This document shows, piece after piece, positions 3,105-32,701 of a stretch of DNA of 44,854 bases. Location: contig CAMJCC010000004.1 of assembly GCA_946404035.1 (NCBI GenBank), positions 1-44,854 on the forward strand. The letters are read 5' to 3'. The notes below the pieces were generated by a model. The model was not told the DNA's origin, did no database searches, and worked only from the letters and a program-made list of their open reading frames with translations. This DNA comes from an uncultured Clostridia bacterium. GTDB lineage: Bacteria; Bacillota; Clostridia; Oscillospirales; CAG-272. The position numbers and the translations under genes were made by a program. Within the stretch, counting starts at the first letter, position 1, and every line of letters begins with the position of its first letter.

Positions 3105-3109
3105 AACAA

Positions 3110-3215
3110 TGCCGCCCGGCAGAAAGCAGGGCGGCAATTCACGCAAACGAAGTTTGCAATTCACGCGCTCAACGAGCGCATTTCATCGCGTCCGCGCCGA
3201 TCATGGCGCGGACGC
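3110..3215. repeat. Hairpin array A (four hairpins, TCA-containing spacers)
   Basis: Four perfect inverted repeats of unrelated sequence follow the uvrA stop. They are TGCCGCCC/GGGCGGCA (3110-3117/3129-3136), GCAAAC/GTTTGC (3143-3148/3152-3157), GCGCTC/GAGCGC (3165-3170/3174-3179) and GCGTCCGCGCC/GGCGCGGACGC (3188-3198/3205-3215). The spacers are almost the same: ATTCAC, AATTCAC and ATTTCATC. The stems differ but the spacers are conserved, so this is not a CRISPR or a simple tandem repeat. Arrays B and C elsewhere in the window have the same layout. Confidence 0.75.
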
Positions 3216-9521: not shown

Positions 9522-9532
9522 ACCGTGTAACA

Positions 9533-9728
9533 AGATAGAGGCGCGCCGCACCAAGAGTAACCGCGGGTCGATCGACCGACGAGGGTTTTGCCGCGGGAAA
9601 GGGGTAGGCGCCGAAGTGTCCGGTGGCTCGTTTCCCCGGATGGCTGGTCGTACGGATAAGATCCGTCCGACTGTCGCGTTTTTCCGCGGAGTGCTATCGG
9701 TGTTTTGTGTCGCTTGAGAGTTCTATCT
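9533..9728 (+). ncRNA. Lysine riboswitch (L-box)
   Basis: The aptamer is closed by P1 pairing of AGATAGA (9533-9539) with TCTATCT (9722-9728). Inside are the conserved L-box strings: AGAGGCGC then CCAAGAGTAAC, GGGGTAGGCGCCGAAG, GGATGGCTGGTCG, GACTGTCGC and GGAGTGCTATC. Lysine binding is expected to stabilise P1 and let the downstream terminator form, lowering expression of dapA-lysA. I did not resolve the alternative antiterminator pairing. Confidence 0.93.
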
Positions 9729-14798: not shown

Positions 14799-15059
14799 GG
14801 GGTACGTCCACTTTCTTGAAAGAAAGTGGAGCAAAGAACTTCAACAAGAGAATAATAAAGCGAAACGGCGAGCGCGGCTCGCCGTTTCGCGGTTTCAAAA
14901 ACGGGACGGACAGGACGCCGACCCCTGCAACGAAACATAAACACAGCCCGTGCCGTTTCCGGCACGGGCTGTTCATCACTTTTGCCGCCCGAACGGGCGG
15001 CAAAATCATAACTGCTCCAAAAGAGCATCATCACGTTGCGCCGTGGCGCAACTCATAAC
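14799..15059. repeat. Composite hairpin repeat B
   Basis: The head GGGGTACGTCCACTTTCTT with an inverted repeat (TCCACTTTC/GAAAGTGGA, 14807-14815/14822-14830), then GCAAAGAACTTCAA, is shared with copy C at 31536. It is followed by a 14-bp stem at 14860-14873/14877-14890. Four further perfect hairpins come next: 14945-14955/14960-14970, 14980-14990/14995-15005, 15013-15017/15023-15027 and 15035-15042/15045-15052. Their spacers are GTTCATCAC, TCATAAC, TCATCAC and TCATAAC. It lies between convergent genes, and the last spacer contains the stop codon of the minus-strand gene at 15053. Confidence 0.8.
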
Positions 15060-30517: not shown

Positions 30518-31471
30518 TCATTCCTCCGTTTGATCGGCGTCGGTCCCCTCCGTCCGGGGTGCGCGCCGTTCGGCGTAGAGCGGGGCGCGGAAGAGCAGCG
30601 GGCGGATCTCGTGCCACGTCGGGATAAACGACGACGCGGGCAGCGGGTTGGTCCCCGCTCCGCATTCGACGGTGAACGAGGGGATCCCGAGGCGTCCGAC
30701 CGCCCAGTCGGTGAGCCCCCCGTACGCCGCCGCACCGGTCGGGACGGCGGCGCGGTAGCCGGTCATGGCGGCGAAGCGCGCGGCGACGGTCGTCTGACCC
30801 GGGAGCGAGCGACCGCCGGAGGTGAAGTAGATCTCGCGCCCCTGGGTGTGGAGCGAGAGGATCAGGGAGAGCGGGACCGAACGGATGAAACGGGTGAGCG
30901 CCGCGGTCTCGGGTTCGGACCCGGGGTATTCCCCGCTGTACCTGGAGGGGGAGCCGCCGAGGATGCCGAGGGAGGCTTCTACCCCTTTATAGGCGCGAAA
31001 CCCCATGTCGTAGTTGTGGTTGAGGTCGACCCCCCTGGCGTTTGCCTGCCAGGTGGAGCAGTCCTCCCGACCTCCGTTCATCCGGGCGATCCGGTCGGAC
31101 AGGAACCCCGCGGAGGCAAGACCGCGGAGCGACAGTTCGACCCCGTCGGGGTTGAGAGCGGGGACGATCCAGAGGGTGCGGACCGAGAGCAAAAACGTGA
31201 GGTCGACCCCCTCGACCGACTGCCCGGCGCGGTGGGCGGAGAGGAGTTCGGAAAGGAAGCGGAGCAGCAGCCCCGCGGTCATGCCCTCCGCGCCGTGGTG
31301 CGCGCCGACGTAGAGCAGATGCACGTCCCCCTCGCCGAGGCGGAGAAGCGGGATCTCGCGACCGAGCACCGAGCGGCCGAGCAGGGAGCGGGACAGGATC
31401 GGGTAGTCGCGCTCCAGTTCGGATATGACGGCGGCGCGCTCGGCAGCGTCGGGACAGGGCGGTATTTTCAT
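30518..31471 (-). CDS. M14-family zinc carboxypeptidase
   Basis: This 317-residue protein has the M14 zinc site: His59 and Glu62 in GAHHGAEGM, and His208 in LSLHTQG. The substrate carboxylate-binding NARGVDLNHNYD is at 144-155 and the general base is Glu269 in FTVECG. In Firmicutes, M14 proteins of this size include gamma-D-glutamyl-diamino-acid peptidases that act on peptidoglycan or spore cortex peptides; pairing with a YlmC-like sporulation gene makes that the best guess (inference). I see no signal peptide, so the protein is probably cytoplasmic. A G-rich GAGGGG site is about 9 bases before the ATG. Confidence 0.88.
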   Translation of the reverse strand: MKIPPCPDAAERAAVISELERDYPILSRSLLGRSVLGREIPLLRLGEGDVHLLYVGAHHGAEGMTAGLLLRFLSELLSAHRAGQSVEGVDLTFLLSVRTLWIVPALNPDGVELSLRGLASAGFLSDRIARMNGGREDCSTWQANARGVDLNHNYDMGFRAYKGVEASLGILGGSPSRYSGEYPGSEPETAALTRFIRSVPLSLILSLHTQGREIYFTSGGRSLPGQTTVAARFAAMTGYRAAVPTGAAAYGGLTDWAVGRLGIPSFTVECGAGTNPLPASSFIPTWHEIRPLLFRAPLYAERRAPRTEGTDADQTEE

Positions 31472-31535
31472 GGCGGCGTTCCCCCCTCGTTGTTCTTCGT
31501 CCGAGTATATGCGAAAAAGAAGCGGGAGAGAACGG

Positions 31536-31791
31536 GGGGTACGTCCACTTTCTTAAAAGAAAGTGGAGCAAAGAACTTCAATAAAAGATTATTGAAGAGC
31601 AAAACGGCGTTCCCCTACGGACTAACGCCGTTTTGCGGTTCTGTAGCCGGAACTGCAAAAGACCTCCTTGCCGTCGGAAAAACAAAACGTTGACCGCGCC
31701 GTTTGGCGCGGTCAACCCATAACGATTGCCGAGGGGCGCGCCCCTCGGCAATCTCAAAGTTCTACACGTTGCGCCGCAGCGCAACTCATAA
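31536..31791. repeat. Composite hairpin repeat C
   Basis: This is the second copy of the repeat at 14799. The head GGGGTACGTCCACTTTCTT with stem TCCACTTTC/GAAAGTGGA (31544-31552/31559-31567), and GCAAAGAACTTCAA, are the same as in copy B. The second stem is GCAAAACGGCGTT/AACGCCGTTTTGC (31599-31611/31624-31636). Then come a 12-bp stem (31689-31700/31705-31716), the spacer CCATAAC, a 28-base perfect palindrome (31725-31752) and the tail hairpin GTTGCGC/GCGCAAC (31768-31774/31779-31785) followed by TCATAA. This fills the 325-base gap between fba and the M14 gene; no coding sequence is seen. Confidence 0.8.
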
Positions 31792-31796
31792 TTCCG

Positions 31797-32660
31797 TTAT
31801 GCTTTTCCGACCGAGCCGAACAGCTCCATCTTCTCCTTGACGGTCGCCTTGATCGCCTCGACGCCGGGAGCCAGGAGTTTGCGCGGATCGAAGCCCTTGC
31901 CCTCCAGGTCCTTGCCCGCCTCGATGTACTTGCGGACGGCGGCGGCAAAGGTGAGCTGGCACTCGGTGTTGACGTTGATCTTCGCAACGCCGAGCGAGAT
32001 GGCGCGGCGGATCATATCGGCGGGGATACCCGTCCCGCCGTGGAGGACCAACGGCATCTTCCCGGTCTTCTCCTGCACGGCGGCAAGGGTCTCGAACGAA
32101 AGTCCCTTCCAGTTGGCGGGGTATTTGCCGTGGATGTTGCCGATCCCGGCGGCGAGCATCGTCACGCCGAGATCCGCGATCTTCTTGCACTCATCGGGGT
32201 CGGCGCACTCGCCCATCCCGATCACGCCGTCCTCTTCGCCGCCGATGGCGCCGACCTCCGCCTCAAGGGACATTCCCTTTTCGCGGCAGATGCGGACCAG
32301 TTCGGAGGTCTTTTCGACGTTCTCGTCGATCGGATAGTGCGAACCGTCGAACATAATGGAGGAAAAGCCGGCGTCGATGCACTTGAAGCATCCCTCGTAG
32401 GTCCCGTGGTCAAGATGGAGCGCGACCGGAACGGTGATATTGAGTTCCCGGATCATCGACTTGACCATCGCGGCAACCGTCGGGAAACCGCACATGTACT
32501 TGCCCGCTCCCTCGGAAACGCCGAGGATGACGGGAGACTTGAGTTCCTCCGCCGTCAGAAGGATCGCCTTCGTCCATTCGAGATTGTTGATGTTGAACTG
32601 ACCGACGGCGTACTTGCCCGCCACCGCCTTTTCAAGCATTTCTTTTGCCGAAACCAGCAT
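31797..32660 (-). CDS. fba: Class II fructose-bisphosphate aldolase
   Basis: A zinc aldolase of glycolysis and gluconeogenesis, 287 residues. Catalytic Asp84 and zinc ligand His85 are in LHLDHGT, with His177 in GNIHGKY and His207 in VLHGGTG. The phosphate-binding KINVNTE and GSHYPIDEN are present. The ATG at 32660 has GGAGG 8 bases upstream; an earlier in-frame ATG at 32696 lies close to the promoter and is unlikely. It has its own promoter and is divergent from the large helicase gene. Confidence 0.96.
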   Translation of the reverse strand: MLVSAKEMLEKAVAGKYAVGQFNINNLEWTKAILLTAEELKSPVILGVSEGAGKYMCGFPTVAAMVKSMIRELNITVPVALHLDHGTYEGCFKCIDAGFSSIMFDGSHYPIDENVEKTSELVRICREKGMSLEAEVGAIGGEEDGVIGMGECADPDECKKIADLGVTMLAAGIGNIHGKYPANWKGLSFETLAAVQEKTGKMPLVLHGGTGIPADMIRRAISLGVAKINVNTECQLTFAAAVRKYIEAGKDLEGKGFDPRKLLAPGVEAIKATVKEKMELFGSVGKA

Positions 32661-32701
32661 TTGTGTTTCCTCCCTGCGAAATGATGTTTTTATCACTTAT
32701 T

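Follow-up and report, generated by a model that had tools for sequence, protein, structure and literature searches.

Organization of the intergenic element C

The element studied here, C (31536-31791), lies in a window of 44,854 nt, which is the whole stretch of DNA that was analysed, from an uncultured Clostridia bacterium. It is flanked by two genes of the minus strand. An M14 zinc carboxypeptidase gene (30518-31471) has its 5′ end toward the head of C, and a class II fructose-bisphosphate aldolase gene (31797-32696) has its 3′ end adjoining the tail. On the plus strand the head starts with a G-rich leader, GGGGGGTACG (31534-31543), assigned from the sequence and from compared copies and present elsewhere as tandem GGGGNACGA-like units. 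Four hairpins follow. H1, TCCACTTTCT-taaa-AGAAAGTGGA (31544-31567), has CTTTCTTnnAAGAAAG as its apex and, below it, a base of 4 bp that varies; in the comparison of orthologous sites the apex is invariant and the base stem covaries. The joint between H1 and H2, GCAAAGAA (31568-31575), is conserved, and the CAAAGAACTT within it belongs to a broader core motif. H2, CTTCAATAA-aaga-TTATTGAAG, occupies positions 31576-31597 and is followed by H3, GCAAAACGGCGTT..AACGCCGTTTTGC (31599-31636). The latter exists in two forms, type I (GCAAAACGGCG..CGCCGTTTTGC), which is that of C, and type II (e.g. GTGACTCGGCTCGTGACTCGCCGAGTCAC), which takes its place at some orthologous sites. The GGTT-led hairpin H4, GGTTCTGtagcCGGAACT (31637-31654), closes the head.

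The tail is laid out as a spacer with AAAACAAAAC, the module M1, and then modules M2 to M4 joined by TCATAAC-type linkers. In C, AAAACAAAAC forms the last part of the spacer (31655-31688) and is a T-rich tract when read on the minus strand. M1 (31689-31716) is a terminator-like module of the minus strand, a 12-bp hairpin and then GTTTTGTTTT, located 81 nt downstream of the stop codon of the aldolase gene. The linker CCATAAC (31717-31723, plus strand) connects it with M2, a strand-neutral perfect palindrome of 30 nt, GATTGCCGAGGGGCGCGCCCCTCGGCAATC (31724-31753). M3 is reduced in C to a degenerate plus-strand remnant, TCAAAGTTCTACAC (31754-31767), at the place where the orthologues and copy B have a GCTCC..GGAGC hairpin. 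The strand-neutral hairpin M4, GTTGCGC-cgca-GCGCAAC (31768-31785), and a terminal linker, TCATAA (31786-31791; TTATGA on the minus strand), complete the element, 5 nt downstream of where the aldolase gene has its stop codon.

B and C are copies of one composite repeat

In a second copy, B (14799-15058, plus strand), the head immediately follows the stop codon of a gene for a pyridoxal-dependent decarboxylase, and the tail adjoins a gene of the minus strand. The heads of B (14799-14865) and C (31536-31602) match without gaps at 88% over 67 nt, so that the shared head reported in a first-pass annotation is real, but longer than the about 46 bases given there. The H1 palindrome occurs in the window in B and C only, with none expected from shuffling. 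The common tail, ACGTTGCGC..GCGCAACTCATAA, which that annotation had recognised correctly, is found at 15033-15058 and 31766-31791 and nowhere else in the window (0 expected by chance). The stem that it had listed as common, AAACGGCG..CGCCGTTT, is present in both copies, the loop of C being TTCCCCTACGGACTAA, and its 28-base perfect palindrome is indeed perfect but measures 30 nt (M2). Its description of the middle hairpins as entirely different does not hold, since these stand in the same order, use the same TCATAAC-type linkers and have common cores (TTGCCG in the second module). Folded as RNA, C reaches −127.8 kcal/mol as compared with −76.9 (sd 5.0) for shuffled sequences, that is, a z-score of −10.2; the z-score of B is −9.2 and that of C folded as DNA −10.9. 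B and C are thus confirmed as copies of one dispersed composite of about 260 nt made of 6-8 small hairpins.

Distribution of the family

A covariance model built from the head (hairpins H1-H4) was run on the genomes. It gave 33 matches in the genome of the window, 16-55 in six sister species and 0-2 in each of nine other genomes of the genus. The repeat is therefore restricted to seven related species, which form a clade of uncultured gut or rumen Clostridia; three of the genomes, G054, G065 and G066, are gut or rumen Clostridia MAGs (RGIG10200 and two uncultured Clostridia bins). When public genomes were scanned with a pattern, looser relatives came up in Desulfatibacillum and in further Oscillospiraceae. 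A related pattern is present in seven IMG/VR contigs. The phage and plasmid collections gave no match. One Oscillospiraceae MAG (JAAWCD) has the core motif opposite an inverted partner (CAAAGAACTT..AAGTTCTTTTTG), in a REPIN-like manner and in tandem rows (L051:1394-1700, L078:4680-4950 and L082:6673-7050).

No Rfam 15 family matches at the element. Elsewhere, a lysine riboswitch (RF00168, 85.5 bits) is located at 9528-9704 of the window, and a T-box leader (E 1e-13, under the Rfam gathering score) on the minus strand of L053 (1358-1570). No paper was found with the core string, and a literature search for Clostridia repeats of this design returned only REP, BOX and similar families.

The tail of B and C is present at four places in the genome of the window, all of them intergenic and with a head. 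Most heads carry other tails or arrays. C and a further copy, C64, can be aligned over 272 nt, from the head through the tail, and the module order is the same in B, C and C64. At orthologous sites, the head was absent in 22 of 91 comparisons, reciprocal and repeated pairs being counted. At the aldolase site it is present in G065 and G053, and G057, G058 and G066 lack an intact head there but have the tail.

Most heads are placed in sense orientation behind stop codons

The gene-end position, the orientation bias and the tail as part of the gene on the other strand are new with respect to the first-pass annotation. Gene context was taken from a simple home-made gene caller, a few of whose calls are wrong (for example, the minus-strand gene beside B was missed), on genome sequence examined in stretches and with small ortholog sets. 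The upstream gene is on the same strand for 71 of 77 heads (binomial p 3e-15, species pooled), a value that overstates independence because copies in different species are partly orthologous; in the genome of the window alone the proportion is 19/21 (p 2e-4). Convergent genes flank 49 of the 77 heads. H1 starts at most 100 nt from the stop codon in 73 of 81 sense heads, with a median of 25 nt. C is one of the six orientation exceptions: its head runs antisense to the two flanking genes, those of the M14 peptidase and of the aldolase. The head of C is probably a passenger, and only the tail half would have a client gene, that of the fructose-bisphosphate aldolase.

The tail as 3′ flank of the gene on the opposite strand

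Read on the minus strand from the aldolase stop codon, the tail consists of M4, M2 and M1, and then GTTTTGTTTTTCC. In a simple terminator scan M1, with its 12 pairs followed by GTTTTGTTTT, was the sole terminator-like match in the region scanned, and on the aldolase strand it displays the GC-rich stem and T-rich tract of an intrinsic terminator. Because 0.8 such sites are expected by chance per scan region, M1 taken alone is weak evidence of a terminator. The T-rich tract is present again in other arrays, but these were selected for the tract. Terminator-like sites in the sense direction show no enrichment downstream of heads (0.33-0.45, versus 0.34-0.54 downstream of other gene ends).

The minus-strand neighbour of B has its TGA stop codon inside the last linker, GTTATGA. 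Other arrays begin at a stop codon or a short way behind it, and each array keeps to one linker, such as TCGATAT, GCGATAT, ATGATG or TGAAT; similar arrays with constant 7-nt linkers stand behind other stop codons. Linker identity is 0.71 within arrays and 0.49 between them (0/2000 permutations), the corresponding values for the hairpin arms being 0.36 and 0.30. One possibility considered was that palindromes were inserted serially and that the linkers may be their target duplications. An array without a head, with AATTCAC linkers, is found at 3105-3202 of the window, from 5 nt after the stop codon of a plus-strand gene (gene end 3104). A further dispersed array family in G054 (L203, L204, L225, L195 and L239) has GCGATAT linkers and, immediately after stop codons, a GAGAGCCGACCGT..ACGGTCGGCTCTC hairpin that is conserved.

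Pairing is kept while the sequence of the stems changes

The alignment of H1 contained 46 double-change cells, compared with 16.8 after shuffling. In the type II heads 98.7% of the cells are paired and there are 52 double changes versus 16.9 expected; the type I heads have 36 versus 10.7. In 15 orthologous head pairs, the changes of the H1 base stem comprised 20 compensated, 1 one-sided that remained paired, 4 one-sided that broke the pair and 3 double that broke it. At the aldolase site M1 reads, depending on the species, GTTGACC.., GCAGACC.., GTTTCCC.., GTTGTCC.. or GTCGTCC.., and every variant has an arm of its own to pair with, in some species with a single mismatch or wobble. The apex and the foot of H1 do not vary, and its base is only required to pair, which suggests that a factor with sequence specificity reads a folded strand of either RNA or single-stranded DNA. 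In the head copies L019, L023, L026, L027, L070, L192 and L195 the loop of H1 contains a further GC-rich hairpin (..GCGCGCCCGC..GCGGGCGCGGTAAGG..), and at L059:7507-7649 and L081:2580-2724 a unit of H1 plus CAAAGAACTTCA is duplicated in tandem inside one head.

G·U pairs are scarce, about 1.7% of the counted head-stem pairs. The comparison of G·U with A·C pairs gave 18 versus 6 in favour of the head-sense strand, its H3 part being biased by the scoring, and 9 versus 2 for the fixed-register H1 alone. The scarcity of G·U pairs would fit a constraint acting on both strands, either through convergent transcription or through a process at the DNA level, and it keeps alive the mobile-DNA alternative discussed below.

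Inner hairpins are exchanged between copies

The two forms of H3 replace each other wholesale at the orthologous sites L204/L187 and L177/L067, and modules of the tail are likewise replaced as a whole between orthologous sites. In G054 three copies lie at unrelated loci, with unrelated flanks and with tails up to 99.3% identical over 147 nt, and one of the three has a different H3. Each of the three near-identical segments reaches the end either of a contig or of the stored sequence, so that one boundary of these recent copies is unread; such repeats break assemblies, a warning for work on MAGs. The swapping of inner hairpins between copies is thereby confirmed, as had been supposed for B and C when they were first described as modular, with inner hairpins exchanged, gained and lost. 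The swapping process would be recombination.

Comparison with known repeat families

Among known systems, BOX elements of Streptococcus pneumoniae (boxA-boxB(n)-boxC; PMC3049150) are likewise composite, intergenic and dispersed, with constant ends and variable middle modules, and strong folding at the RNA level is common to both; the likeness is one of architecture, not of homology. In contrast to BOX, the middle modules described here differ in sequence and not just in number, the heads are strongly sense right behind stop codons, and the other end is terminator-like. REP, BIME and REPIN elements (GTAG/CGTC palindromes with RAYT; PMC3733652, PMC3116915) are also small palindromes that lie downstream of coding regions, where the neighbouring genes are convergent or codirectional, and sometimes supply the stop codon, as occurs in B. 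Membership in this group fails in the genome of the window because neither a Y1 transposase (PF01797/RAYT) nor the tetranucleotide tag is found there: no GTAG or CGTC stands at the foot of the palindromes, the foot of H1 being variable in alignment A3 (45 copies). The sole Y1 transposase (IS200/RAYT-type) detected in the seven-species clade is at L259 (G057 C182). Four different head hairpins, orientation specificity and few G·U pairs are further differences, so that the BIME-like character given to the element at first stands as an analogy, not as membership. With regard to MITE features, no clean empty site with a target-site duplication was seen among the 22 absences, and the recent G054 copies, at contig ends, have one boundary unread. 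The pneumococcal repeat SPRITE (PMC3049150), which resembles a Rho-independent terminator, is also dispersed, but it is a single hairpin; in the present element the terminator-like hairpin belongs to an ordered array as one of its modules. A bidirectional intrinsic terminator between convergent genes similarly provides a 3′ region that serves both strands, but the element described here is repeated genome-wide, modular and exchanged between loci. It is best read as a mosaic gene-end cassette analogous to BOX and BIME and belonging to neither.

A model for the composite element

On balance we favour, with a moderate degree of confidence, a model in which C is a copy of a mosaic, two-sided gene-end cassette that spread as a unit and whose modules are swapped by recombination. 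In the model, the head (H1-H4), normally in sense orientation right behind the stop codon of the left gene, would form a hairpin cluster in its 3′-untranslated region. On the other strand, the tail (M1-M4) would be the 3′ flank of the right gene, consisting of the stop codon, hairpin beads joined by GTTATGA, and M1 with its T-rich tract, which resembles an intrinsic terminator. With the head serving the left gene and the tail the right gene, the cassette would be best suited to convergent genes. Copies would spread as units within one clade, and non-reciprocal recombination between them would swap single hairpins (H3, M1, M2) with preservation of base pairing. Both halves may be transcribed and may act in termination or in the stability of mRNA 3′ ends. 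Against this reading, G·U pairs are fewer than a purely RNA-level constraint would predict, the head of C has no gene to serve, and the presence of the head varies at orthologous sites.

A less probable alternative, although one to be taken seriously, is that the repeat is non-autonomous mobile DNA, and that a putative recombinase or transposase acts on its head as a folded single strand of DNA, in the way that RAYT recognises REPs. The clade-specific amplification, the near-identical composite segments at unrelated G054 loci, the scarcity of G·U pairs, the invariant apex and foot of H1 on a merely paired stem base, indicative of a folded strand and a sequence-specific factor, and the occurrence of the core motif in other Clostridia, in Desulfatibacillum and in IMG/VR contigs would all be accommodated. 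The gene-end position would then reflect target choice or the purging of harmful insertions. However, the 22 absences of the head include no clean empty site or target duplication, six of the seven clade genomes have no Y1_Tnp, and the strong sense orientation, the proximity to stop codons and the sharing of the head by most orthologous sites speak against it. More speculative, and in our opinion rather unlikely, is that a dedicated machinery reads the folded H1 apex together with CAAAGAACTT and spreads and remodels the arrays, with their array-specific constant linkers and freely replaced hairpins, which would make them a new class of mosaic 3′-end element distinct from REP, BOX and MITE.

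Replication template switching, by copying one arm onto the other, could generate neutral palindromes with no selected function. We regard this as improbable. Near-perfect pairing with very few one-sided changes and the replacement of whole stems over a short evolutionary distance would be its expected outcome, but it leaves unexplained why the H1 apex and CAAAGAACTT are invariant, why the linkers are constant, and why heads are in sense orientation and the module order is repeated at unrelated loci. Hardly any weight can be given to head and tail being separate repeat families, adjacent at gene ends by chance, with B and C not one element: the other tails that most heads carry and the aldolase sites with a tail and no intact head would agree with it, but the unlinked occurrence of head and tail, raised in the first-pass annotation as the finding that would separate them, is not what the genome of the window shows, where 4/4 tail places share their region with a head, and C and C64 align from head to tail. 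The likeness to integrons suggested there, taken as a cassette array with attC-type recombination, can be practically discarded. Tandem hairpins with a constant short linker resemble attC arrays superficially, but the hairpins carry no genes, attC core sites differ from the array linkers, and no integron integrase (TIGR02249) passed the curated cut-off in any of five genomes, with only Xer-like partial matches below it.

If the two-sided cassette model is right, untranslated gene ends can be assembled from interchangeable, recombining parts. The repeat would also provide a natural series of paired stem changes, at the same site in seven species, by which selection for folding could be separated from mutational copying of one arm onto the other. 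Moreover, given that the core motif, often sense behind stop codons, is present in other gut Clostridia as well, one mechanism could explain a common and apparently unnamed class of intergenic repeats.
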